Part shown: piece after piece, positions 2,818 through 34,857 of the stretch
How positions within the stretch are numbered: position 1 is the first letter of the stretch
How the letters are laid out: each line of letters opens with the position of its first letter
Source: a virus
Strand: one strand, 5' to 3'
IMG/VR virus record: IMGVR_UViG_3300043788_000060
Span: 46,257 to 110,256 of that record
DNA: 64,000 nt
Notes under the pieces: generated by a model
What the model was told of the DNA's origin: nothing
What the model saw: the letters and a program-made list of their open reading frames with translations, nothing else
Databases searched by the model: none
Translations under genes and position numbers: made by a program

Positions 2818-3597
2818 ATGTATTACATCTATTTGGTAACGAATAAAGTCAACGGAAAGATTTATGTTGGTCAGACTGGGTTGACCATAGAGGAACGTTT
2901 TAAAAGTCACATCTGGTCTCGGAACAAGGACGATCATTTTCATGCGGCAATCCGAAAGTATGGAGAAGACGCTTTCGTCATCCAAGAGTTGGGCAAGTTC
3001 GAATCTCTCGAAGAAGCCAACAACGCAGAATCTTTGTGGATAATCTCCCTTCGATCCTACGACAGCAAAATTGGCTACAACACGAAATTTGGTGGCGAAA
3101 ACGGAGGAGCCCCCACCGAAGAAACAAGAATCAAAATCGGATTAGCAAGCAGCCAAAGAGTTCATGCTGCTGAGACTCGGGAAAAGATGCGAAATTCTCA
3201 TCTCAAACGCCAAGGAAAAACTACTTCCCACGAGGGAGTGGGGGTTTTTAAAGGACGTTTTCGGGCGAGAATCAAGATTCACGGAAAAGAAATTTCTTTG
3301 GGACAACACGATACCATTGAAGAGGCGGTTGAGTTTCGAAAAAAGAGTTTAGAACGGCTGAGCCAAATCGGACTAGAAGCTTTCACGGGAGAACTAGAAA
3401 TCTTCCGTAAAGAAGTAAACAAGAAAAGAATCGCAAACCGGCCTCACAGAGGACCTTTATCTGACGAAGAAAAGGAACAGATTAGTATTCGCACCAAGAA
3501 ACGATGGGCGAAGAACTTTAATTGGATGGACGCTCAATTCGTTTCTCCCTTTGTAACGGACGCCCAAACCCAGCAGAACGATCAGGTTGCATCATGA
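2818..3597 (+). CDS. GIY-YIG homing endonuclease (free-standing)
   Basis: 259 residues. The N-terminal GIY-YIG nuclease domain shows YYIYLVT...KIYVGQT (residues 2-20), an ERF arginine near residue 27, and the helix carrying NAESLWI with the metal-binding Glu. The C-terminal half is basic with TREKMRNSH, a nuclease-associated modular DNA-binding type. The start has GAGAGAAC just upstream. It directly follows the intron-rich capsid gene but is not inside an intron. It has its own promoter and leader hairpin, and its TGA overlaps the next start (ATGA). Confidence 0.88.
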   Translation: MYYIYLVTNKVNGKIYVGQTGLTIEERFKSHIWSRNKDDHFHAAIRKYGEDAFVIQELGKFESLEEANNAESLWIISLRSYDSKIGYNTKFGGENGGAPTEETRIKIGLASSQRVHAAETREKMRNSHLKRQGKTTSHEGVGVFKGRFRARIKIHGKEISLGQHDTIEEAVEFRKKSLERLSQIGLEAFTGELEIFRKEVNKKRIANRPHRGPLSDEEKEQISIRTKKRWAKNFNWMDAQFVSPFVTDAQTQQNDQVAS

Positions 3598-3863: not shown

Positions 3864-4108
3864 TCGCCTGTTGCGGGAGCCGGGCTATTGCGGATTATTG
3901 CAAACGGTGCGGTCGGAATTTAACGGCTCTTGGGCAATACCGAGATTATGTTCACTATGTCCCCGGAACTCAGACCCCATGTTTGACCATCGAAGAAGCC
4001 CTCGGAATGACCGAAGAGGAATTTGACGAGATAATAAATCCTCTTCAAGAAGAACTCGCAAGAAAGCTATCCGAAACCATTGACCTTTTAGTAAAGGATT
4101 TCACCTAA
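3860..4108 (+). CDS. Small Cys-rich protein of unknown function
   Basis: 82 residues, with the start set by the ATGA overlap with the upstream stop. The N-terminus has CC at residues 4-5 and CKRC near residue 15, a likely zinc site, and the C-terminal half is acidic and helical (MTEEEFDEI). Its TAA overlaps the next ATG (TAATG). It is not recognised. Confidence 0.6.
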   Translation: MIACCGSRAIADYCKRCGRNLTALGQYRDYVHYVPGTQTPCLTIEEALGMTEEEFDEIINPLQEELARKLSETIDLLVKDFT

Positions 4109-4215
4109 TGCCCGTCTCCCCAGCATCCTCCAGTACCGGCCTGACAACTACCACAGCGGTTTTCTACGGCGCGAAAAAGAAACCCAAGCCGAGGAAGAAG
4201 CCAAAGAAGAAATGA
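4108..4215 (+). CDS. 35-residue basic-tailed peptide
   Basis: Begins at a TAATG overlap. The N-terminal half is Ser/Thr-rich and the C-terminus is a run of Lys, Arg and Pro (KKKPKPRKKPKKK), suggesting nucleic-acid or membrane contact. Its stop overlaps the next start (ATGA). It is supported mainly by its tight fit between neighbours. Confidence 0.45.
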   Translation: MPVSPASSSTGLTTTTAVFYGAKKKPKPRKKPKKK

Positions 4216-4334
4216 CGGCGCTTTGGATAGTCGGGATAAGTTTAGGATGCCTTCTTGTAGCCACAATTGCAGCGGCGGTCGTCATCGGCATTGCTAAACA
4301 AGCTATCAACTATTTCATTGGTCGCTCTCGATGA
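4212..4334 (+). CDS. 40-residue single-pass membrane protein
   Basis: Starts at an ATGA overlap. Residues 3-27 form one hydrophobic segment (WIVGISLGCLL...VVIGIA), followed by a short tail ending GRSR. Small one-helix proteins of this kind occur in phage lysis and membrane-remodelling roles, but nothing here assigns one. Confidence 0.5.
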   Translation: MTALWIVGISLGCLLVATIAAAVVIGIAKQAINYFIGRSR

Positions 4335-4995: not shown

Positions 4996-5940
4996 ATGAT
5001 GTACACGCAGGGATACATAGCATCTTTGAAGGTCGGAGGTAAAATCCTCCGGGAATCAAACGGAACAGTTTCGCTCCCATTTGGGTCTGAATATTCCGTG
5101 CTCCTCAAAAACAAACTCTCCCGTCGGGCTCAAGTCAAAGTCGAAGTAGACGGCCAAGACGCGACCGAGGGAACCAAGCTGATCCTGCCCGCAAACGGAT
5201 CGCTGGAGCTAGAACGCTTTATCAAGTCTGGCAACCTAAAAGCGGGCAACAAGTTCAAGTTTATCGAACGGACTTCGAAGATCGAAGAACACCGGGGAAT
5301 CAAAGAAGACGACGGCTTGATCCGAATCGAATTCTGGGCTGAGAAAGAAGTCGTAGATGTACCGGTTGTCCGGCATCATTATTACGATGATTGGGTTCCA
5401 GTCCGCAGATATTACTGGGATCGCCCGTGGTATGATCCGTACTACCCGACATGGCCTCAACCGACGATTACTTGGAATTCCAATTCCGGTATCCAAACTT
5501 CCTGCTATAATACAAGCGGAAGTTTAGGAGAGGCACAAAGCGATAATCTGGGCTCGGCGCAAAATTTTTCTGGCAGTTTGCAAAAATCTTCTGCGAGACA
5601 GACCAGAAGTCTACACCCGCAAGCGTCTAGCGGCATCACTCGCGATTCAGGTCAGCAAGTTCATGCTCAGAACTGCATGATGGCGGAAACCAGTTTCAAC
5701 GACGCAGGAATCACGGTCCCGGGAAGTCACTCAAACCAAGAGTTCCAAAGCACTTACGGGTTTGAAACCGAATCGAACAGTCACGTGATTGTACTTCAGT
5801 TGCGGGGTGTGGTTGGGGACAAACCAGTCGTAGTTCCGGTTACCGTAGACCACAAGCCGGTCTGCCCAACCTGCGGAACTACAAACAAGGCGCAAAATAA
5901 ATTCTGCAAAGAATGCGGAACGGCCTTGCAATTAGTCTAA
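4996..5940 (+). CDS. Zinc-ribbon-tailed phage protein of unknown function
   Basis: 314 residues, with start ATGATG after AAGGAG. Residues 1-125 form a compact mixed domain (GYIASLKVGGK, PFGSEYSVLLKN, RIEFWAEKE), followed by a Tyr/Trp/Pro-rich stretch (HHYYDDW...YYPTWPQP), a Ser/Gln-rich linker, and a C-terminal zinc ribbon with CPTCG...FCKECG. Similar proteins with this domain and ribbon occur in many large phages, to my recollection, without a known role. It precedes the candidate ncRNA, and the ncRNA promoter overlaps its last codons. Confidence 0.6.
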   Translation: MMYTQGYIASLKVGGKILRESNGTVSLPFGSEYSVLLKNKLSRRAQVKVEVDGQDATEGTKLILPANGSLELERFIKSGNLKAGNKFKFIERTSKIEEHRGIKEDDGLIRIEFWAEKEVVDVPVVRHHYYDDWVPVRRYYWDRPWYDPYYPTWPQPTITWNSNSGIQTSCYNTSGSLGEAQSDNLGSAQNFSGSLQKSSARQTRSLHPQASSGITRDSGQQVHAQNCMMAETSFNDAGITVPGSHSNQEFQSTYGFETESNSHVIVLQLRGVVGDKPVVVPVTVDHKPVCPTCGTTNKAQNKFCKECGTALQLV

Positions 5941-5953
5941 AGTGTGGTATAAT
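5926..5953 (+). promoter_or_regulatory. Strong promoter before the structured non-coding segment
   Basis: TTGCAA (5926-5931), a 16-base spacer and TGTGG-TATAAT (5943-5953). The flanks AGTGTGGTATAATGTA match the intron 1 and GIY-YIG promoters almost base for base. Predicted start is near 5960. No gene follows for 820 bases. Confidence 0.75.
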
Positions 5954-5959
5954 GTATTT

Positions 5960-6740
5960 GTTAGGTAGCGGGTTTCACCGGCCAAGGCGGAGTCTTTAAG
6001 CGAGAACAAAAACGGGAATGACTCTAACCGGTAGAGTGACCTTGGTTTGCAGATAGCAACATAACCGCCCAGAGCGTGATTATGCTGCCTATAAATTTCG
6101 AGTTTGCGTAAATCGAGGGATGCTGGCTACTGAGGAGCGAAGGTAGCTGGATCGGGAACTTCCCAAACCACCCCGATCTTTGCCCTCCTTGCTCAGAAAT
6201 GACGATTTACGCAATGAAGGTGAGGGCCACGGTTGGTCATACGTCCAAACTGTTGGGTAGGTACTGGATGGGACAGCCTCCAACAGCCCGTGGCCTGATT
6301 CCCAAAGGACAACATGATTGATTCAGAGTTTGGTTGGTGGCGTAGTTGGATTAGTGAGCTTCTTTCCTAGATCGATCTGGGAAAGATGAACCAGAGGTAG
6401 TTTCAGTTCAGCCCTCTCACCCCCGGAAGTCATGAGCCGGACTCGGGTGCTTATTAGAACTGAAGCGGGGATGGGGCTCGGGTTTGGCCTCAACGCATAC
6501 CCACGGGGTTCATTACCCAACAGGCCCAACATTTTAGGTTTGACCCTCTTCGGAGGAGAACAGCAACAAGCGGAACTTTAGTTCACACAAACTTGAGTTT
6601 TGACGCATCCCCCTCGCCCGGTACCTGCTTGTTTGGGGTGGCCCCTGAATTCCTAGGAATTCAGTAATCCGGTGGTCAAATGGTGGTGACACCTACCAGC
6701 CTGTGTGGGCAAAGTGGTGTGACTCTAGCATTCTCAGAGT
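5960..6740 (+). ncRNA. Candidate large structured non-coding RNA (about 0.8 kb)
   Basis: No plausible gene on either strand between 5941 and 6782, but many perfect nested stems: CCAAGG 5982/6040; a 12-bp stem 6104-6115 with 6203-6214 enclosing GATCGGG 6150/6172; GGCCACGG 6225 with 6288 enclosing CTGTTGG 6250/6280; CTTTCC 6362/6380; TTCAGTTC 6402/6457 enclosing CACCC 6418/6445; GGCCT 6486/6522; a C-UUCG-G hairpin at 6545-6556; GGGG/CCCC at 6635-6645; CTGAATTC/GAATTCAG at 6645-6664; ACTCT/AGAGT at 6722-6740. Size, phage location and a dedicated promoter recall the large ornate RNAs GOLLD and ROOL, but I see no diagnostic sequence linking it to either. The end point is a guess. Confidence 0.65.
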
Positions 6741-6754
6741 AGAAGCTTAATTTC

Positions 6755-6769
6755 GTCCAGATAATGGAC
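6755..6769 (+). repeat. 15-mer motif, GTCCAGATAATGGAC variant, gene leader
   Basis: Directly upstream of the ribosome site TAGGGAG of the gene at 6783, at the end of the structured segment. Confidence 0.85.
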
Positions 6770-6782
6770 TAGGGAGAAAACG

Positions 6783-6938
6783 ATGGCACCAAAGCATCCG
6801 GGGTTCAAAGCAGTTCAATCGAAGATCGCAGGAGAAGGCTATAGCAAGAAAGCAGCCGGAGCGATCCTCGCAAACGCGACACGAAATGCCAGCAAGTCTG
6901 CGAAGGCAAAGAACCCCAAACTCCGCAAAGTCAAGTAG
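6783..6938 (+). CDS. Small basic Ala/Lys-rich phage protein
   Basis: 51 residues, start preceded by TAGGGAGAAAACG, which lies directly after a 15-mer copy (6755-6769). The protein begins MAPKHPGFKAV and is rich in Lys and Ala (SKKAAGAILANATRNASKSAKAKN). Short basic proteins of this pattern are common in phages and are presumed nucleic-acid associated. The next gene starts immediately after its TAG. Confidence 0.65.
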   Translation: MAPKHPGFKAVQSKIAGEGYSKKAAGAILANATRNASKSAKAKNPKLRKVK

Positions 6939-7166
6939 ATGGAAGAATCTCTTCAAATCCACCACAGCGAGCAGATTCACTGGGCTTCCTACGATCCGGA
7001 CACCCAGCAATTGAACCTGACGCTCAACGACCGGAGAAAGCACGGGTATTCGCCGGTCCCCCAAAAGGTGGTTAACGGATTTGTCCGCGCTAAATCCCAC
7101 GGGGATTTTTTCCACAAGAACATCAGAAACAACCCGAATTACCGATACCACGGAAAGGTAGAATGA
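6939..7166 (+). CDS. KTSC-domain protein
   Basis: 75 residues. The pattern SEQIHWASYDPDTQQLNL, then HGYSPVPQKVVNGFVRAKSHG and a final DFFHKNIRNN matches the KTSC domain (Y-x-VP, then F-x-x-A-x-S-x-G-x-FxxNIR), a small domain of unknown function often beside phage or lysyl-tRNA-synthetase-like genes. It sits between the basic protein and a secreted protein, with a 4-base overlap downstream. Confidence 0.7.
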   Translation: MEESLQIHHSEQIHWASYDPDTQQLNLTLNDRRKHGYSPVPQKVVNGFVRAKSHGDFFHKNIRNNPNYRYHGKVE

Positions 7167-7492
7167 ACATGAAACTGGCTTTACTTTCAGTGTTCCTAGC
7201 GTTACCACTTTTGCTTCCGGCGCAAGTCGTGGTTTCTCCCGCCCCGGAAACGACCGTGACCTTGTCTGGAGCGGGCACAATTTCCTCCTACAGTATTTTG
7301 GTTTCAACGGGGGACCCATGTGCGCTATACGGGGGAAAACAACTCAAGGATGGAACCTGTCAAACGACCTTTGATTTTCATATGGGTCCGGACAATTCCG
7401 TTTGTCTCTTGCATTTTTCTCTAAAACTCTGGCACGATCCGAAGGTAATTTGCACTTGGACTCCCAACACCTCGAAAGGAAACACCAAATGA
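7163..7492 (+). CDS. Small secreted protein
   Basis: 109 residues with a clear Sec signal peptide (MNMKLALLSVFLALPLLLPAQ) and probable cleavage after PAQ. The mature part has four Cys that could form disulfides in the periplasm. AAAGG precedes the ATG. ATGA overlap with the next gene. Function unknown. A phage protein sent to the envelope could act in lysis or superinfection control, which is inference. Confidence 0.55.
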   Translation: MNMKLALLSVFLALPLLLPAQVVVSPAPETTVTLSGAGTISSYSILVSTGDPCALYGGKQLKDGTCQTTFDFHMGPDNSVCLLHFSLKLWHDPKVICTWTPNTSKGNTK

Positions 7493-7800
7493 AGAAAGTA
7501 TCCGGCCTACTGGCGGTACTGTTCGCCGCAACACTCGTAGCACAAACACCGCTTCCGCCTAAGATTCCGGTGGAAGTTCTCAAACAGTTTTATGCGGCAG
7601 ACGCCGCCCAGCAAAGGGCCCAGCGCGAATTGGATTCAGCGCAGAGAGATATCCAATCAGCAAACGACGGCTGGAAGCAGGCTGTTAGTTCTCTACAAAA
7701 GATTTGTGGAGATAAATTTGCTCTGAAACAGGATACAGTCAACACCGACCCGTATTGTGTGGCCAAACCTGAACCAGAGAAACCATCTGAAAAGAAATAA
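7489..7800 (+). CDS. Secreted coiled-coil protein
   Basis: 103 residues, starting at the ATGA overlap. A signal peptide (MKKVSGLLAVLFAATLVAQ) is followed by a helix with heptad spacing (residues 30-70, AQRELDSAQRDIQSANDGW) and a Pro/Glu/Lys-rich tail. The pair of consecutive small secreted proteins, one of them coiled-coil, could be spanin-like, but no lipobox or transmembrane anchor is seen. It is not assigned. Confidence 0.55.
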   Translation: MKKVSGLLAVLFAATLVAQTPLPPKIPVEVLKQFYAADAAQQRAQRELDSAQRDIQSANDGWKQAVSSLQKICGDKFALKQDTVNTDPYCVAKPEPEKPSEKK

Positions 7801-27973: not shown

Positions 27974-30900
27974 ATGCCCAATAACCTTCAAAAAGTCGGA
28001 GCACAGCCCAGCAGGCCCGCACGGTTTGGCGTTCTCTGGCACAACAATTTCTATCTCGGCATGGTTACTCAGCGGAATCCGCTGCACAGCTACCTGCAAC
28101 ACATCGAAGAGGAGTTTTACGGAAACCAACCGGCGCTGATTGGCGGGTCTAATACCGAGGTCTCTACCAAGCTGACGTTAATCCGCAGACCGGGACACTC
28201 TGTCTACAACTCAAGTACCTTTCCGACAATAAACCGGTTCTACGAAAACCGGTTGTCGATTTTCAATGCCACCCAAACGACGACCACCGAGTCAATTCAG
28301 ATCGTCGCAGATTGCGCACCTGTCACACAAGGACCGTTTACCTTCAATATTTCCAGTGTACAGGTTCTGAAAATTCAAACGAATTTCAGCATCATCCATC
28401 CTACATATACCTACTACGCTCTGGTAACTTTCTCGACGACTCTACCAAGCGTTGTCTATGGACAAACTTTTACCTTTTCCGGTCTTACTGGATATACCGC
28501 CTTAAACGGACATGCGTTAATCGGCGTATCGTCCGTAATTAGATATCATTTGTCTGCTGGACCCAATCAGGCGCTTTTCTCGTTTGGGTCTGCTGCTTAT
28601 CCAAATACCCCGGATACCGGAATAGCGACGGTTCCTGCTGTAACCGGAGTAGGAACCGTAAGAGATGTTACCGGCCCTTCGACTAACAAAGTTCTGTTTT
28701 CTAAAACAGCGGGGGCCGGAACCGCGAGTTTTCAATCGGTCGGAAACACTCTATATTTTTCGGACGGCCCCGATCAGGAAAAACTGATTACCCCTAATCT
28801 AATCTGGTCGGCTAATCAGACTTTCAATACCGGAAACCAAGTTTTAGACACCAACGGAAATCTTCAGATCGTCCAAGGAACCGGAACAGCCACGATAACG
28901 GAAATCGCAGTTATCAGTTCTACTCTAGGAGTAGTCGGCGGTCCTACCCAATATTTCTTACAGATAACTTTCTCTTCCGAAGTGTTCTGGACTCAAGGAA
29001 CACTCGTTACTTTCTCCGGGGTTACAACTTATACGTCTATAAACGGTCAGACCCAGACCGTTGTGGTGAATCCTACCTATCTTCCTCCGGGAGTTAACAC
29101 AGCTTATTTCACGACAGCAGCAATCACTACCTACGGTCCGGCGGTGGATACAGGCACAGCCACTTCTACGAATTCTACCGGCAGTGGAACCAGCGGAGGC
29201 ACAACTCCTTCTTGGAGTCCAACAATAGGCGGATTTACTACCGACGGAGATTTGACGTGGCAAAACTTCGGAATCCCTCTTTATAACTGGGCAGTACCCC
29301 CTCCGACTCTCCCCCCCACTTTAAGCATACCGTCTGGAAACAGATACTGGCAGCCAAATTTTTCGGTTCCTCAGTGGTACTCCGTTTTAGACCAGAACAA
29401 TCATATTCAGTTTGTATCCTCCCCGGGAATCACAGGAACCCAACAACCTGTTTGGAGTAGCTTATACGATACCGGGTCTTCGTCCAACGGAGTTGTAGCG
29501 GGGTCTACTACAGACGGGACTGTAACTTGGCTAAACGCCGGTCCATTAGGCACGTGGCAGGCCGACACGACGTATTATGTTTTCCAGTGTATCTTGGATT
29601 CAAACGGGAATATTCAAATCGCAGAAAGCGGAGGAACCAGCGGAGGCTCCGCGCCTGTCTGGAACACAACTATTGGAGTAACTACCACAGACAACACTAT
29701 TACTTGGGTTTGTGCAGGTCCCGGTCACGTTATCATAACCGGAAATGTATATTACGGGTATAGTTGGGTCTCTACGGACGGAAGTGTAACCACCTCCTCG
29801 CCAGTAGTTTCTCTAAATATCAACAGTGCGGTTTTAGGCCCCGCAGGAAACCCGATAGCGACAGTGTCCGGAAGTTTCCCGGCTGATCAACAGGTAACGC
29901 AGGCATGGGTATGGAGATCGGTTCAAGGTGGGTCAGCAGCAGAGTTATTCTTCGACTCTGCCCAGTACAACCCCACTCCCGGTGCCGGGTCTAACTGGTC
30001 GTTCAACGATGTAATCCCAGATGTTTATCTGAACGAACTAATTCAGGCACCTCTGGATGACCAAAACGATCCTCCTCCTGTAGGACTAACGGCTCTTGCC
30101 TATCACCTCAACCGCGTGTGGGGCTCCGTCGGAAATATTGTTTTCAGTTCTCAGACCTCCGGTATCGTCGGAAACCCCTACACAGCTTGGGACCCGGGAG
30201 TGTTCTTCACTTTCCCGGACACCGTGGTACGATTGTGGCCTACCTCAAACGGTCTGCTCGTATTTACGGTCGCCGATATTTTTGTCATTCAAGGATTGGG
30301 AGATGCTTCTAGTTCCTTCTTTTCGACACCGTTCTTACAAGGAACGGGGCTTGCGAATTACGATGCTTTTACAGTAAAAGGCGCGATTCCGTATTTTTAT
30401 ACCACAGACAATCAGGTACTTACAATCGACCCAAGCACTGGACTATCAGAAGTAGGGGCCCCGGTCGGAGATCAATTTGGTCCGAATAATGGAACAAACA
30501 CCTTTCTTCCTTCTACGGCTCGGTTGACTTGGAATTTCTCCGGGTCGCAGGAAAAGGCGTTGTACGTTTCGGATTTCTCTCAGAACTGGTGGAGGATGTT
30601 ACCCACCCCGTCTCCAGAAACCGGAACAACGTGGTGCCCAATGGCAACTATTGTCGGCGGGTTCTCCGCTGTTCAGTCGGTAGAAACTTCCCCGGGAATT
30701 CATAACTTGTTGCTGGGTCCACAGACGACCGGTCCGATTCTTATGAGAGACCCGTCTGTCTATTCCGACAACGGTTCGTCGTACAGCGCCTATACCATAA
30801 TCGGCAGCATAGTTCTGGCCCAGCCGGGACAATTGGCGTACATCAAATTGTTAACAACAGACTGTCAGGCAGTAGGAACTCCGATAACCCTTGAAGTTCA

Positions 30901-31138
30901 ATTGGATGAGATAGCTCCGTTGTCTTCCGGGTATTTCGAACCCTTAACTTTGTATGTTCCTGATCCGACCCAGTTAACCGCCCCTAACAGCTTATATGCA
31001 CAACGATTCTATATGTCGCAGACGCAACAACCGGCGGTATGCAGGCACTTCCAAGTTCTAGTTTCTTTTGGAACCGATGTTGTTAAGAACGAATTACTTA
31101 GCCTGTCTATTTTCGGTGCCTACGATCAAGAGGACTAA
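27974..31138 (+). CDS. Large tail nozzle/tubular protein B-like
   Basis: 1054 residues. The N-terminal part (GVLWHNNFYLGMVTQRNPL, then KLTLIRRPGHSVYN, INRFYENRL) and a repeated beta architecture through the middle, with NPYTAWDPGVFFTFPDTVVRLWPTSNGLLVFTVADIFV further on, resemble podoviral tail nozzle proteins built on a beta-propeller. Several 90-residue beta repeats (PSWSPTIGGFTTDGDLTW, APVWNTTIGVTTTDNTITW) are inserted. Start follows AGAGGACC. Its TAA overlaps the next ATG. A near copy of the 15-mer (30480-30494) encodes GPNNG. Confidence 0.55.
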   Translation: MPNNLQKVGAQPSRPARFGVLWHNNFYLGMVTQRNPLHSYLQHIEEEFYGNQPALIGGSNTEVSTKLTLIRRPGHSVYNSSTFPTINRFYENRLSIFNATQTTTTESIQIVADCAPVTQGPFTFNISSVQVLKIQTNFSIIHPTYTYYALVTFSTTLPSVVYGQTFTFSGLTGYTALNGHALIGVSSVIRYHLSAGPNQALFSFGSAAYPNTPDTGIATVPAVTGVGTVRDVTGPSTNKVLFSKTAGAGTASFQSVGNTLYFSDGPDQEKLITPNLIWSANQTFNTGNQVLDTNGNLQIVQGTGTATITEIAVISSTLGVVGGPTQYFLQITFSSEVFWTQGTLVTFSGVTTYTSINGQTQTVVVNPTYLPPGVNTAYFTTAAITTYGPAVDTGTATSTNSTGSGTSGGTTPSWSPTIGGFTTDGDLTWQNFGIPLYNWAVPPPTLPPTLSIPSGNRYWQPNFSVPQWYSVLDQNNHIQFVSSPGITGTQQPVWSSLYDTGSSSNGVVAGSTTDGTVTWLNAGPLGTWQADTTYYVFQCILDSNGNIQIAESGGTSGGSAPVWNTTIGVTTTDNTITWVCAGPGHVIITGNVYYGYSWVSTDGSVTTSSPVVSLNINSAVLGPAGNPIATVSGSFPADQQVTQAWVWRSVQGGSAAELFFDSAQYNPTPGAGSNWSFNDVIPDVYLNELIQAPLDDQNDPPPVGLTALAYHLNRVWGSVGNIVFSSQTSGIVGNPYTAWDPGVFFTFPDTVVRLWPTSNGLLVFTVADIFVIQGLGDASSSFFSTPFLQGTGLANYDAFTVKGAIPYFYTTDNQVLTIDPSTGLSEVGAPVGDQFGPNNGTNTFLPSTARLTWNFSGSQEKALYVSDFSQNWWRMLPTPSPETGTTWCPMATIVGGFSAVQSVETSPGIHNLLLGPQTTGPILMRDPSVYSDNGSSYSAYTIIGSIVLAQPGQLAYIKLLTTDCQAVGTPITLEVQLDEIAPLSSGYFEPLTLYVPDPTQLTAPNSLYAQRFYMSQTQQPAVCRHFQVLVSFGTDVVKNELLSLSIFGAYDQED
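30480..30494 (+). repeat. 15-mer motif, one mismatch, coding
   Basis: GTCCGAATAATGGAA in the nozzle-like gene, read as GPNNG. Confidence 0.7.
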
Positions 31139-31368
31139 TGCCGTCAATCGCCTCCAGACTTCGTCCTAGTCTTCCCCGCATATCGGCAGTTCCCCCGGTT
31201 GCTCTTCAGCCGAAGCCCCCGATTCCTCCCCCGTCTCCGGGAATTAGCTCCACTCTCCGGTCGCCACTTCCAAATATTGTTGTTACTCAACCAGACTCTC
31301 TTCGCCAGTATTACGCCGGAGGTAAAGTCCCTCAATACCGTTTTCCGCCTCTCAAACCAATTTCATAG
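31138..31368 (+). CDS. Pro-rich small protein
   Basis: 76 residues, start in a TAATG overlap. Very Pro/Ser/Arg-rich (RLRPSLPRISAVPPVALQPKPPIPPPSPG), probably disordered. Located between the nozzle-like gene and a membrane-anchored coiled coil. Function unknown. Confidence 0.45.
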   Translation: MPSIASRLRPSLPRISAVPPVALQPKPPIPPPSPGISSTLRSPLPNIVVTQPDSLRQYYAGGKVPQYRFPPLKPIS

Positions 31369-31375
31369 GATATTT

Positions 31376-31678
31376 ATGCAATTCTTTCAGTGGATAGTTT
31401 CAAACTGGCAGGTAGTGTGCGGGTGGGTGACGGGAATTTTCGTTCTCAGTAAATTACTCAGAGGTTTTACTCGTCTTATTTCTTCCGTTCTGGCTGTAGT
31501 GACACGGTTCGAAAAAGCCGAAGGGACTTTAACTTCTTTGGCCATCAATCATATCCCTCACTTACAAATGGAACTTGAGCGAGTTAACAAAGCATTAGAT
31601 TCTCAAAGCTCACTACTTGAAAGTATGGACGAGATTCTGAAGAAAAGCTACGAGAAGCAGTTCGGAGATTATGTCTAA
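31376..31678 (+). CDS. Membrane-anchored coiled-coil protein
   Basis: 100 residues from ATG 31376. A hydrophobic segment (WQVVCGWVTGIFVLSKLL, residues 11-28) is followed by an amphipathic region and a heptad-like helix (MELERVNKALDSQSSLLESMDEILK). The shape fits a lysis accessory or virion membrane contact protein. No firm family. It overlaps the next gene by 8 bases. Confidence 0.5.
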   Translation: MQFFQWIVSNWQVVCGWVTGIFVLSKLLRGFTRLISSVLAVVTRFEKAEGTLTSLAINHIPHLQMELERVNKALDSQSSLLESMDEILKKSYEKQFGDYV

Positions 31679-32075
31679 ACCTGTTTTTGTCAGATCGGTG
31701 AAACCGGACGAAGGTAAAATTTTTCTGGATTGGGTTCGAGAAAATCCGGTCAATGAGTTCGATCCGGATGTTGCTTTGTTTCCGTCCAGCATTACGTGGT
31801 GCGCCTACGACAAAGATGGGCCCCTTGCGTACCAAACGGTACAGCGCCCTCTAATGTTGGAGTCTCTCGCCCCAAGACCCGGCGCAACAAAACAGCAGGT
31901 AGCTTCGGCCCTAAAAGAGCTAACTCAAAATGCTGTTACTCAAGCCGGATTGTCTGGGGCTGGTGAGATTTATTTCTTGGGCAGCGATTCGGCCACGAGC
32001 GAGTTTGCAACCAATCATATCTTCGAAGAAGTCAAGATGAAGGTATATCGCGTTAAGATCAAGGATTTGGAATGA
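31671..32075 (+). CDS. GNAT-acetyltransferase-like protein
   Basis: 134 residues. The order VRSVKPDEGKIFLDWV (N-terminal strand and helix), then TWCAYDKDGPLAYQTV (central strands) and ATKQQVASALKELTQNAV (helix after the acetyl-CoA loop) resembles small phage GNAT-fold proteins found in head/ejection modules. The CoA-binding loop is degenerate, so catalysis is uncertain. ATGA overlap with the next gene. Confidence 0.5.
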   Translation: MSKPVFVRSVKPDEGKIFLDWVRENPVNEFDPDVALFPSSITWCAYDKDGPLAYQTVQRPLMLESLAPRPGATKQQVASALKELTQNAVTQAGLSGAGEIYFLGSDSATSEFATNHIFEEVKMKVYRVKIKDLE

Positions 32076-32875
32076 GAATAACCACGTCAGCACAGTTTGT
32101 CTGGAGCGAGAAGCAGAATAAATATCTGCTCGTTAAAAAGTCGTCCATTATCTGGACTGGCGATATTTTGTATTGCAAGGGCGCGTCTGCCGCACAGGAG
32201 AATTTGGCGAATCAGCAGGCGCAATTCTACCAAACACTGACTTCGGATTACGGACAGCAATTCGCAAATCAATCAGCAATTCTTAATACTCTTCAGAATT
32301 CTTTGAACCCTATCGTCCAAGCCGGACCAAACCAGTTCGGCTTCAGCCAAGCAGAGACCAACAACCTCAACGCGCAGGCTATCCAAGGAACCGGGGCGCA
32401 ATACGCCAACGCCTCGAAAGCTTTGGGTGCCCAGCAGGCCGCACAGGGCGGGGGAAATTCATATCTTCCAACCGGGGCGCAAGCCGCACAGCAAGGAGCG
32501 TTAGCTTCGTCTGCTGCAAATCAAGCTTCGAATCAACTTATGGGGGTTCAGCAGGCGGGTTACCAGCAAGGCTATAACCAATATCAATCTGCTATCGGCC
32601 AACTCGGCGGAGTAGCTTCTCAATACAATCCAACCGGATACGCCGGACAGGCAACTGGTGCCGGATCGTCTGCCTTCAATTCTGCAACTCAAGTTCAGCA
32701 AATGAACAACGCAGCAAGTCCGTGGAATGTAGTCGGCGGAATCCTCGGAGGAGCCGTAGGCGCAGGACTCGATGCGTTTACTGGCGGTCTTGGCGGGGCT
32801 GGGGCCAGCGCGTTAGGTGGCATGTTCAGTGGAGGTAATGGGGGACCATCGACCGGCGGCGGACTAGATGACTAA
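32072..32875 (+). CDS. Gln/Ala/Gly-rich internal virion (ejection) protein
   Basis: 267 residues. After 40 more ordered N-terminal residues the sequence is dominated by Gln, Ala, Asn, Gly and Ser, with a long helix region (AAQENLANQQAQFYQTLTSDYGQQF) and a Gly-rich C-terminus containing VVGGILGGAVGAGLDAFTGG, a possible membrane-inserting stretch. This is typical of phage DNA-ejection proteins. A 15-mer variant in antisense (32143-32157) encodes SIIWT. Confidence 0.6.
   Translation: MRITTSAQFVWSEKQNKYLLVKKSSIIWTGDILYCKGASAAQENLANQQAQFYQTLTSDYGQQFANQSAILNTLQNSLNPIVQAGPNQFGFSQAETNNLNAQAIQGTGAQYANASKALGAQQAAQGGGNSYLPTGAQAAQQGALASSAANQASNQLMGVQQAGYQQGYNQYQSAIGQLGGVASQYNPTGYAGQATGAGSSAFNSATQVQQMNNAASPWNVVGGILGGAVGAGLDAFTGGLGGAGASALGGMFSGGNGGPSTGGGLDD
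32143..32157 (-). repeat. 15-mer motif, AGATAAT variant, antisense coding
   Basis: In an ejection-protein gene, read as SIIWT. Confidence 0.75.
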
Positions 32876-32887
32876 CAGGAAAAAACA

Positions 32888-33283
32888 ATGAATGAAAAAC
32901 GGATTGAGGCGTTAGTAGATGCAATCGCGAATTTGAAGGGGTCCACGACCAACCCAGACGGCGTTTTGTATCAGATAAAGAACCCGACAGGAATACTCAG
33001 TTTTTCCCGTCCGGGTAAAAATGAAATAGACTCTGAAGGCCGACGGATTTTCAAAAGCTGGCTTGCCGGATACAGGGCTGCGTGTTTTGACGCCGGTATT
33101 AAAATCGAGGGAAGGTCTCGTGCCGGAATCAAAGAAGAAGATCGCTTAGAAAACTTCCTTCGTGTAATGGGAATCGACCAACGACTTGGGCAACAGCAGG
33201 TTGTGAAGTTCCTACGCAGAGCCCTCAAGGATCAAAATATTACACCAGAAACCCCGCTTTCGTATTTTCGTGAGGAGAACTAA
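32888..33283 (+). CDS. Unknown protein in the ejection module
   Basis: 131 residues. Mixed alpha/beta, basic, with EALVDAIANLKGSTT, FKSWLAGYRAACFDAGI and a C-terminal helix VVKFLRRALKDQ. It sits between two probable ejection proteins and overlaps the next ATG by one base (TAATG). It is not recognised. Confidence 0.5.
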   Translation: MNEKRIEALVDAIANLKGSTTNPDGVLYQIKNPTGILSFSRPGKNEIDSEGRRIFKSWLAGYRAACFDAGIKIEGRSRAGIKEEDRLENFLRVMGIDQRLGQQQVVKFLRRALKDQNITPETPLSYFREEN

Positions 33284-34857
33284 TGCCTGATCCAGTTCCA
33301 AATCCCGTAGCCTCCGCAATAGTCACTCCTCCTCCGTCTCCTGTTCCTCCACAGGTTCAGAATCCTCCTGCGCCCGACCAACTACAACAGGGACCCGGTC
33401 CACAGAACGTTACACCTCCAACTCAAAATCAGCCGGTAAAACCCCCAAGCCCGTGGCAAAGAGCGGTTCACGCTTTACTGGGAAGTCAAACCGAATATCA
33501 GCAAACGCCTAACGGCCCGGTTCCTGTCCAAGTTCAGAACAAACCCGGACAGCTATTTCGCAGCATTTTAGCCGGAGCTATTTTGGGTGCTGGAGCCGGG
33601 TCGGCAAACGCCGAACATGATGCAGGCAGCGGTTGGTCTGCTGCTGGTCGCGGTGCGGCTGCTGCGGCACAAAACCAGCAACAGCAGCAACAGCAACGTG
33701 CGGCGCAGGCCCAGAAACAGTGGGAGAACCAGAGGCAGGCACAACAGGATAATCAGGAAGAAATGGTGCGTAAGGCACAAATTGCCGAGGCCAACGCCAA
33801 CACCCTCCGGATTAACAAAGAGAGTAACGGTCTCGATTATACCCAACACAAAGAAATAGCCGATGCCGGAAAGGCCGCAGTTCAGGCTTACGATGACGCG
33901 GGAATACACCCGGTAGCTGAATCCATACCTGAGTCTCAAATGCAGCAGTATATCCAAGACCACCCCGGGTCGTCTTCCTTAGATTGGGAACACACCGGAG
34001 TAAAAACGGTTATTGGTGCTGACGGAACTCCCACCTACGAATACACTTTGTCCGCATACGATCCGAAAGGAAAAGTATCGGTTCCTCCGGTACTTTATGA
34101 TCAATGGAAGAAAGACGGGGTTTTTGACAGATATCCGGAGTATGGTCAGATTCTAAAGGACGGTAAAACTCTGACCGCTAGTCAATATATTCAGGTCAAA
34201 AGGGATGCCGAAAAGGTTCAGGCAGATAATTTAGCCAAAACCAATCAAGGACTCGAAACCACTCTGAAGCAGACTCAAATAGACGCAGCTAAGGCGGAGA
34301 TCACGGAACGCAGAGCAGCGGCTTGGAACGATAGTTTGTCCGCAAAGGAAAAACAGGATCAGGAAAAAGAGAAGAACGAACTTAATACCGCTTGGGATCA
34401 TTTGGCTAAAGCGGATAACGATCCTTCTAAATCTCCTATGACTGCCGAAGATCGGGTGGCTATTGCCAGAAACGCACAGCCCCTCATCCAAGATTCTTTG
34501 AATGCGATTAAAGTCGCAGCGGCGGACCCGTCTCAGGCCGATCAGCTTCCACAGCTTTGGGAAACCTACCACTCTCTGTCTAGGTTGGCTAATCTGGGCG
34601 GAGGAGGGTCCGCAGCCGATCCTATCCAAAAAACCGTGGATACCCTGAAAGGTAAAACTCCGCAGGAAATCCAAGCAGCACTCGACGACCCTAAGAACGG
34701 AGTTCCCGATGCAGCTAAAACGGAAATCTGGAAAAGGCTGGGAATGGCTCCTCCGGCTTCTAAATCAGCCATTGCTCTTAACCCAGCAGGAAAAGCGGTA
34801 TCTAATTTTGTTCAAACAGCCGCACCTGTCGTTGCCAATATCCCAGTAATACCATAA
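33283..34857 (+). CDS. Internal virion/ejection protein with Pro-rich start
   Basis: 524 residues. A disordered Pro/Gln-rich N-terminus (first 60 residues), a Gly/Ala hydrophobic patch (SILAGAILGAGAGSANA, residues 90-106) that may enter membranes, a poly-Gln helix region, and long charged coiled coils (EKQDQEKEKNELNTAWDHLAKAD). Composition and neighbours suggest a protein injected with DNA. No enzyme motif seen. Confidence 0.55.
   Translation: MPDPVPNPVASAIVTPPPSPVPPQVQNPPAPDQLQQGPGPQNVTPPTQNQPVKPPSPWQRAVHALLGSQTEYQQTPNGPVPVQVQNKPGQLFRSILAGAILGAGAGSANAEHDAGSGWSAAGRGAAAAAQNQQQQQQQRAAQAQKQWENQRQAQQDNQEEMVRKAQIAEANANTLRINKESNGLDYTQHKEIADAGKAAVQAYDDAGIHPVAESIPESQMQQYIQDHPGSSSLDWEHTGVKTVIGADGTPTYEYTLSAYDPKGKVSVPPVLYDQWKKDGVFDRYPEYGQILKDGKTLTASQYIQVKRDAEKVQADNLAKTNQGLETTLKQTQIDAAKAEITERRAAAWNDSLSAKEKQDQEKEKNELNTAWDHLAKADNDPSKSPMTAEDRVAIARNAQPLIQDSLNAIKVAAADPSQADQLPQLWETYHSLSRLANLGGGGSAADPIQKTVDTLKGKTPQEIQAALDDPKNGVPDAAKTEIWKRLGMAPPASKSAIALNPAGKAVSNFVQTAAPVVANIPVIP

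Follow-up and report, generated by a model that had tools for sequence, protein, structure and literature searches.

Structured segment behind a phage-type promoter

The window analysed here is a 64,000-base stretch of DNA, bases 46257-110256 of a 110,256-base uncultivated virus record, and one segment of it raised the question of whether this phage encodes a single large non-coding RNA of about 0.8 kb or several smaller ones. The segment, 5941-6782, sits between a plus-strand gene (4996-5940) for a 314-aa protein with a C-terminal zinc ribbon, whose Pfam matches fall below cut-off, and a plus-strand gene (6783-6938) for a 51-aa basic protein, which follows directly and marks the same site in relatives. 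A KTSC-domain protein is encoded downstream of the 51-aa gene, and small protein genes span 6783-7800. The segment had been described as free of genes, and no plausible gene was found in it, the longest same-strand internal ORF being 49 aa (6432-6581) and none looking like a coding sequence. No tRNA was found in the segment by ARAGORN or by the Rfam tRNA and tmRNA models, and the RNA modules described below are not tRNA-like to either.

A promoter motif, TTGCAA-16-TATAAT with an extended -10 (TGGTATAATG), was located on the plus strand at 5926-5953, at the start of the gene-free segment, in agreement with the strong promoter claimed there previously. The window contains 6 copies of its core, GTGGTATAATG, compared to 0.11 expected, and 3 more are present in L005, the locus of the same record that carries its tRNA genes. 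Most copies of the core have a protein gene to drive within 180 nt, while mainly RNA lies ahead of the copies at 5944 and at L005 3250 and 4890. The spacing from the -10 element to P1, the closing helix of the first RNA module, is 6-10 nt in the window and in L099, L108 and L161, so transcription would be expected to start at the first P1 pairs. A start at about 5960 would make the 5′ end of the transcript coincide with this helix.

Folding of the whole segment

The earlier note was right that this is a promoter-driven, structured non-coding sequence, but one large stable fold was not observed. The 833-nt plus strand gave an MFE of -282.5 (z -1.11), with 3 of 20 shuffles as good, and the minus strand scored alike in the shuffle comparison (z -1.21). 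Among sub-segments, only 6097-6216 was clearly more stable than chance (z -3.95). Because the whole segment folds no better than shuffles, the reported count of at least ten perfect nested stems is no more than chance would give for the segment as a whole, although particular helices within it do covary. Several of the individual elements were recovered. The 12-bp long-range helix is present at 6104-6115/6203-6214, with 12-bp arms appearing in 0 of 60 shuffles, and the UUCG tetraloop caps a C(UUCG)G hairpin at 6545-6556. The palindrome is perfect, but it extends over 20 bp (6645-6664) rather than the 16 bases first given, a length absent from 60 shuffles.

GOLLD and ROOL, the proposed candidates, are structured non-coding phage RNAs often found near tRNA islands (PMC12286853). 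Searches with cmscan returned no match to either, nor to any other relevant Rfam family, at gathering in the window or at E <= 10 in 5850-6850; a match to mir-3940 in the latter interval (E 9.2) was taken as chance. A single large ornate RNA of this kind, forming a new class of that size, would account for the length, the promoter and the predicted long multibranch fold. It is highly improbable, however, given the missing Rfam match, the comparison with shuffles and the distribution of the parts: modules A, B and E, described below, are found alone elsewhere, and module F and 6308-6683 are missing from L099, where A and B lie side by side. No contiguous RNA of 600-850 nt conserved as a whole was found; A, B and E occur separately, in other combinations and places, in other phages. 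As judged from sequence comparison, the segment therefore very probably consists of several structured RNA modules that are independent of one another, not of a single 0.8-kb RNA.

Module A is conserved in unrelated phages

Module A (5954-6102, plus strand) is represented by 8 distinct sequences collected by pattern scans (window, L099, L108, L097, L131, L137, L161 and L183). Helix P1 (5962-5969/6084-6091) closes the element, which has the conserved blocks GCGGGTTTCACCG (5968-5980) and CCGCCCAGAGCGTGATTATGC (6065-6085); two blocks, GCGGGUUUCACCG and CCGCCnAGAGCGUGAUUAUG, are nearly invariant among the copies. Across the 8 sequences, 8 of 10 P1 pairs were changed on both sides, and P1 together with the inner pairs was paired in 93.8% of cells, compared to 23-45% with slid partners. 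The covariation score was 0.62 versus 0.21 in shuffles (0/500), and the presence of G-U pairs in P1 points to RNA rather than DNA hairpins. The proposed inner pairs, TCAC at 5975-5978 with GTGA at 6076-6079, are invariant in all copies; UCAC and GUGA never vary, and these pairs come without compensatory changes. The inner helices were chosen by eye. P3 (5982-5987/6040-6045) is supported in aggregate, with a summed helix score of 45 compared to 34.1 (sd 3.2; 0/400 shuffles), and P4 (5990-5994/6020-6024) is compatible with the module A sequences, yet alone not significant in most. The local stability of A, like that of B, is no evidence by itself (z about -1.1 to -1.5). Variable stems around an unchanging core are a typical feature of RNAs whose partner is a protein, a ligand or another RNA.

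Model R1 recovered all module A members, one per record, and found none in 20 control loci. To avoid circularity, model R2 was built only from L131, L137 and L183, whose records have no protein in common with this phage (0 of 119 of its ORFs by tblastn at 1e-8); the L131 and L137 records are related to each other. R2 recovered the window copy with 35.6 bits and an E-value of 1.6e-6, along with four other family copies and nothing else in 380 kb, the E-values of models of the R1-R3 type being rough owing to their short calibration. The compensatory helices and the recovery by a model of unrelated carriers identify module A as a new family of predicted structured RNAs. Its motif letters were absent from the literature searched, and an earlier description of this or the other modules beyond Rfam 15 and that literature is possible.

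Several candidate members were set aside. The 15-mer AGAGCGTGATTATGC alone occurs in 57 viral contigs, most of them without the rest of A, and the upstream block was required in addition. L184-L188 matched a loose pattern and were dropped, the 3′ block being absent, and the GenBank phage MT837384 likewise has no 3′ block and was unmatched by R1. When the segment, A, B and E were each compared with GenBank phages by blastn, no true match was obtained, and the 19 matches of the A pattern in 84,980 bacterial and archaeal species were all judged by eye to be chance.

The genes around these modules bear on how they might act. One alternative is that the segment is a long 5′ leader whose modules would exert cis-acting control (riboswitch-like elements, attenuators or translation control) over the genes at 6783-7800. 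The transcript would indeed continue into the 51-aa gene, a hairpin and a ribosome-binding site being all that lies in between, and a module lies directly before a same-strand ORF in L131, L137 and L183 (module A) and in L170 (module B). In L161, however, a relative with syntenic genes, A is on the minus strand and both flanking genes are on the plus strand; it has a promoter to itself (TTGACC-N17-TAAGAT) and no gene downstream on its strand. In L097 it stands behind a different gene, the genes that follow A or B differ between phages, and the same 51-aa gene is found in relatives behind quite different RNA content. Given the L161 exception and the differing downstream genes, module A was not found as a constant upstream leader of one pathway, and the leader explanation appears rather unlikely, although some modules may act in cis. 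Trans action is proposed for the modules mainly because of L161 and because no downstream gene is constant; module A would then act through its invariant core on a host or phage protein or on another RNA.

Modules B and F and stretch G

Module F (6097-6216, plus strand), closed by the 12-bp helix, is stable when folded alone, with 0 of 100 shuffles as good as its one sequence. Module B (6216-6308, plus strand) has homologues in L099/L151 and L170. Its 9-bp stem (6224-6232/6288-6296) encloses two hairpins, at 6233-6248 and at 6250-6286, the second with the conserved loop GTAGGTACTGGATGGGACAGC, and 7 pairs were changed on both sides among 3 distinct sequences only. Stretch G (6308-6683, plus strand) is likewise known from one sequence, and its blocks are not more stable than shuffles; it contains a near-palindrome at 6361-6386, a 10-bp helix near 6406-6466, and the UUCG hairpin and 20-bp palindrome given above. 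No homologues of F or of 6308-6683 were found in 3.2 Mb of compared sequence.

Module E occurs here and in tRNA arrays

Module E (6684-6740, plus strand) forms the 3′ end of the array. Its core consists of GTGACACCTAC (6686-6696) and AGTGGTGTGAC (6713-6723), followed by a distal hairpin (6722-6740). A scan of the collection found 18 viral contigs with the core, which in several cases lies in a tRNA array; the count comes from a widened pattern, as the narrower first pattern (end, gap) gave 0 matches. A second copy was present in the tRNA array of the same record (G000 32283-32350), and another in that of G001, which as L250 is the only one of the E-carrier loci compared to share proteins with this phage. 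All 5 pairs of the distal hairpin were changed on both sides, and core helix 1 hardly varies.

Model R3, built from phages unrelated to this one, recovered the window copy of E with 25.7 bits (E 3.5e-5), a modest score for a short copy. The copy in the phage's own tRNA array was recovered as well (E 5.9e-12), and two copies in the L006 array, located at the corresponding 3′ position, gave weak matches (E 0.014 and 0.084). With the window copy recovered by a model of unrelated carriers and a covarying distal hairpin, module E is a second new family of predicted structured RNAs. Covariation in homologues, which the earlier note had proposed as a check, was found for module A and, with less data and more weakly, for B and E. 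The supposed new class does comprise new families, but their size is about 60-140 nt, not that of one 0.8-kb RNA. The recurrence of the A and E families in phages without a detectable protein relationship suggests that RNA pieces are exchanged between phages.

The position of E at the ends of units, after tRNA-Thr in arrays, after a structural-region gene in L252 and last in the present segment, suggests a 3′-end or processing role, and ACAAUUU often follows its hairpin. It could accordingly be argued that only A is a functional RNA and that E, possibly along with B, marks a site of processing or of transcription termination. The conserved two-strand core is larger than a terminator needs, however, and further tRNA genes stand close behind E in tRNA arrays, making this explanation very improbable. 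Within an array of separate RNA modules, E may still serve as a 3′-end or processing element.

The copies of E directly after tRNA-Thr(TGT) lie at L249 1391-1532, L005 5199-5336 and L250 3018-3166, and L249 has no protein in common with this phage in the stretch compared. L252, from a different phage group, has E in tandem among its structural genes (4028-4300), with covarying GGAGAGA hairpins and in three copies of which the third is weak. In L251, the sequence behind E gave a weak match to abiF RNA that did not reach the gathering score (E 0.62) and was regarded as chance. The record's own array comprises 31 tRNA genes by ARAGORN at L005 1752-7747 (G000 about 28751-34746), separated by long gaps. 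These gaps hold conserved non-coding RNA, including a module at about L005 4900-5160 that is also present in L243 and L234, and an E-like element lies within the array at L005 3483-3518.

RNA content of the site differs between relatives

Relatives were collected by scans with the 314-aa protein and the head protein, and the content between a GTGGTA-NAAT promoter and the 51-aa (or another small) gene was variable among them. Other modules occupy the interval that runs from a like promoter to a small basic gene, the same as here or one resembling it, and homologues of the 51-aa protein with 67-86% identity stand behind other RNA content. L099 and L151 carry A, B and a short ORF, and L108 carries A followed by other sequence; L006 has modules C and D, L098 has C, and L102 and L106 have D. 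Module C (L006 8935-9060; L098 14441-14561) and module D (L006 9065-9172; L102 13066-13235; L106 3038-3188) are conserved and non-coding, and in D 11 pairs were changed on both sides in three sequences. A further conserved non-coding module, H, is shared by L102 (12990-13080) and L161 (6965-7030).

The order of promoter, A, further modules and E, together with independent recurrence and exchanged content, fits an array of small RNAs. We consider it probable that the segment is a polycistronic array in which the RNA modules are independent and mostly act in trans. Transcription would start at the phage-type promoter and pass through A, F, B, the stretch without known relatives and E before reaching the 51-aa and KTSC genes. 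Each module would fold by itself, the modules would be released as separate RNAs, and they would be exchanged as units, both from phage to phage and from one place to another within a phage lineage. Since A and E occupy different places in related phages, and since homing endonucleases lie nearby and palindromes and dispersed hairpins are present, the modules might instead be small mobile DNA elements or their relics (MITE-like palindromes or homing-endonuclease targets), palindromic by chance. This is very unlikely, as there is one A copy per record, the promoter is placed to start at P1, and divergent copies show compensatory changes, including G-U, with other blocks identical, which is the pattern of selection on RNA. 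For the array of RNA modules, a more specific proposal is offered tentatively: the interval from the fixed promoter to the small basic gene may be a dedicated RNA-cassette site, comparable to anti-defence protein islands, into which genes for small structured RNAs from many undescribed families, A to E and others, are plugged as trans-acting effectors and exchanged between unrelated phages.

Relation to known phage RNAs

The modules resemble GOLLD and ROOL in that E is found both in the segment and in a tRNA array, but they are independent units of 60-140 nt, whereas GOLLD and ROOL each form one fold of 600-850 nt. Phage tRNA arrays with interspersed non-coding RNAs likewise carry small RNAs in a row behind one promoter, and the 31-tRNA array of this phage has the same promoter motif and E module as the segment; they differ in that the segment is without tRNA. 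Rfam cis-regulatory RNAs found in phages, such as wcaG, manA and glnA (PMC9964418), are similar in being structured motifs whose loops are conserved and whose stems covary, but none of them matches, and L161 has A without a downstream same-strand gene. Phage-encoded small regulatory RNAs are described as phage-carried and are proposed to act in phage-host interaction (PMC12197685); compared with that account, the present modules are defined by structure conserved across unrelated phages.

Large structured phage RNAs are usually discussed in terms of a few giant classes. In the present case, the RNA families are small and modular, are missing from Rfam 15 and recur in phages without detectable common proteins, and a defined site swaps RNA families as its promoter and neighbours stay. 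If trans-acting, these modules would constitute a transferable set of RNA effectors, each open to cloning and testing individually, and pull-down and structural studies can be aimed directly at the conserved cores of A, B and E.

Dispersed hairpin and neighbouring genes

A 15-nt hairpin, GTCC-AGATAAT-GGAC, lies on the plus strand at 6755-6769, immediately upstream of the 51-aa gene's ribosome-binding site. The form GTCC-RRATAAT-GGAC has 21 copies in the window, compared to 0.00 expected, and 6 in L005; sites include 2270, 4705, 6755, 8459, 10769, 35060, 42675 and 63151. It often overlaps a start codon (the ATG of ATAATGGAC) or precedes a ribosome-binding site, and relatives carry stem-changed forms (TTCC-AGATAAT-GGAA). 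The hairpin is possibly a translational operator or a processing site.

Elsewhere in the window, the major head protein gene is apparently split, with an ORF at 197-478, a homing endonuclease at 478-1461 and a further part at 1551-2096. Rfam found no intron in the window, whereas a group I intron is present in L006, a relative, at 5202-5384. A GIY-YIG type homing endonuclease gene (2818-3597) stands behind another copy of the phage promoter, at 2728.
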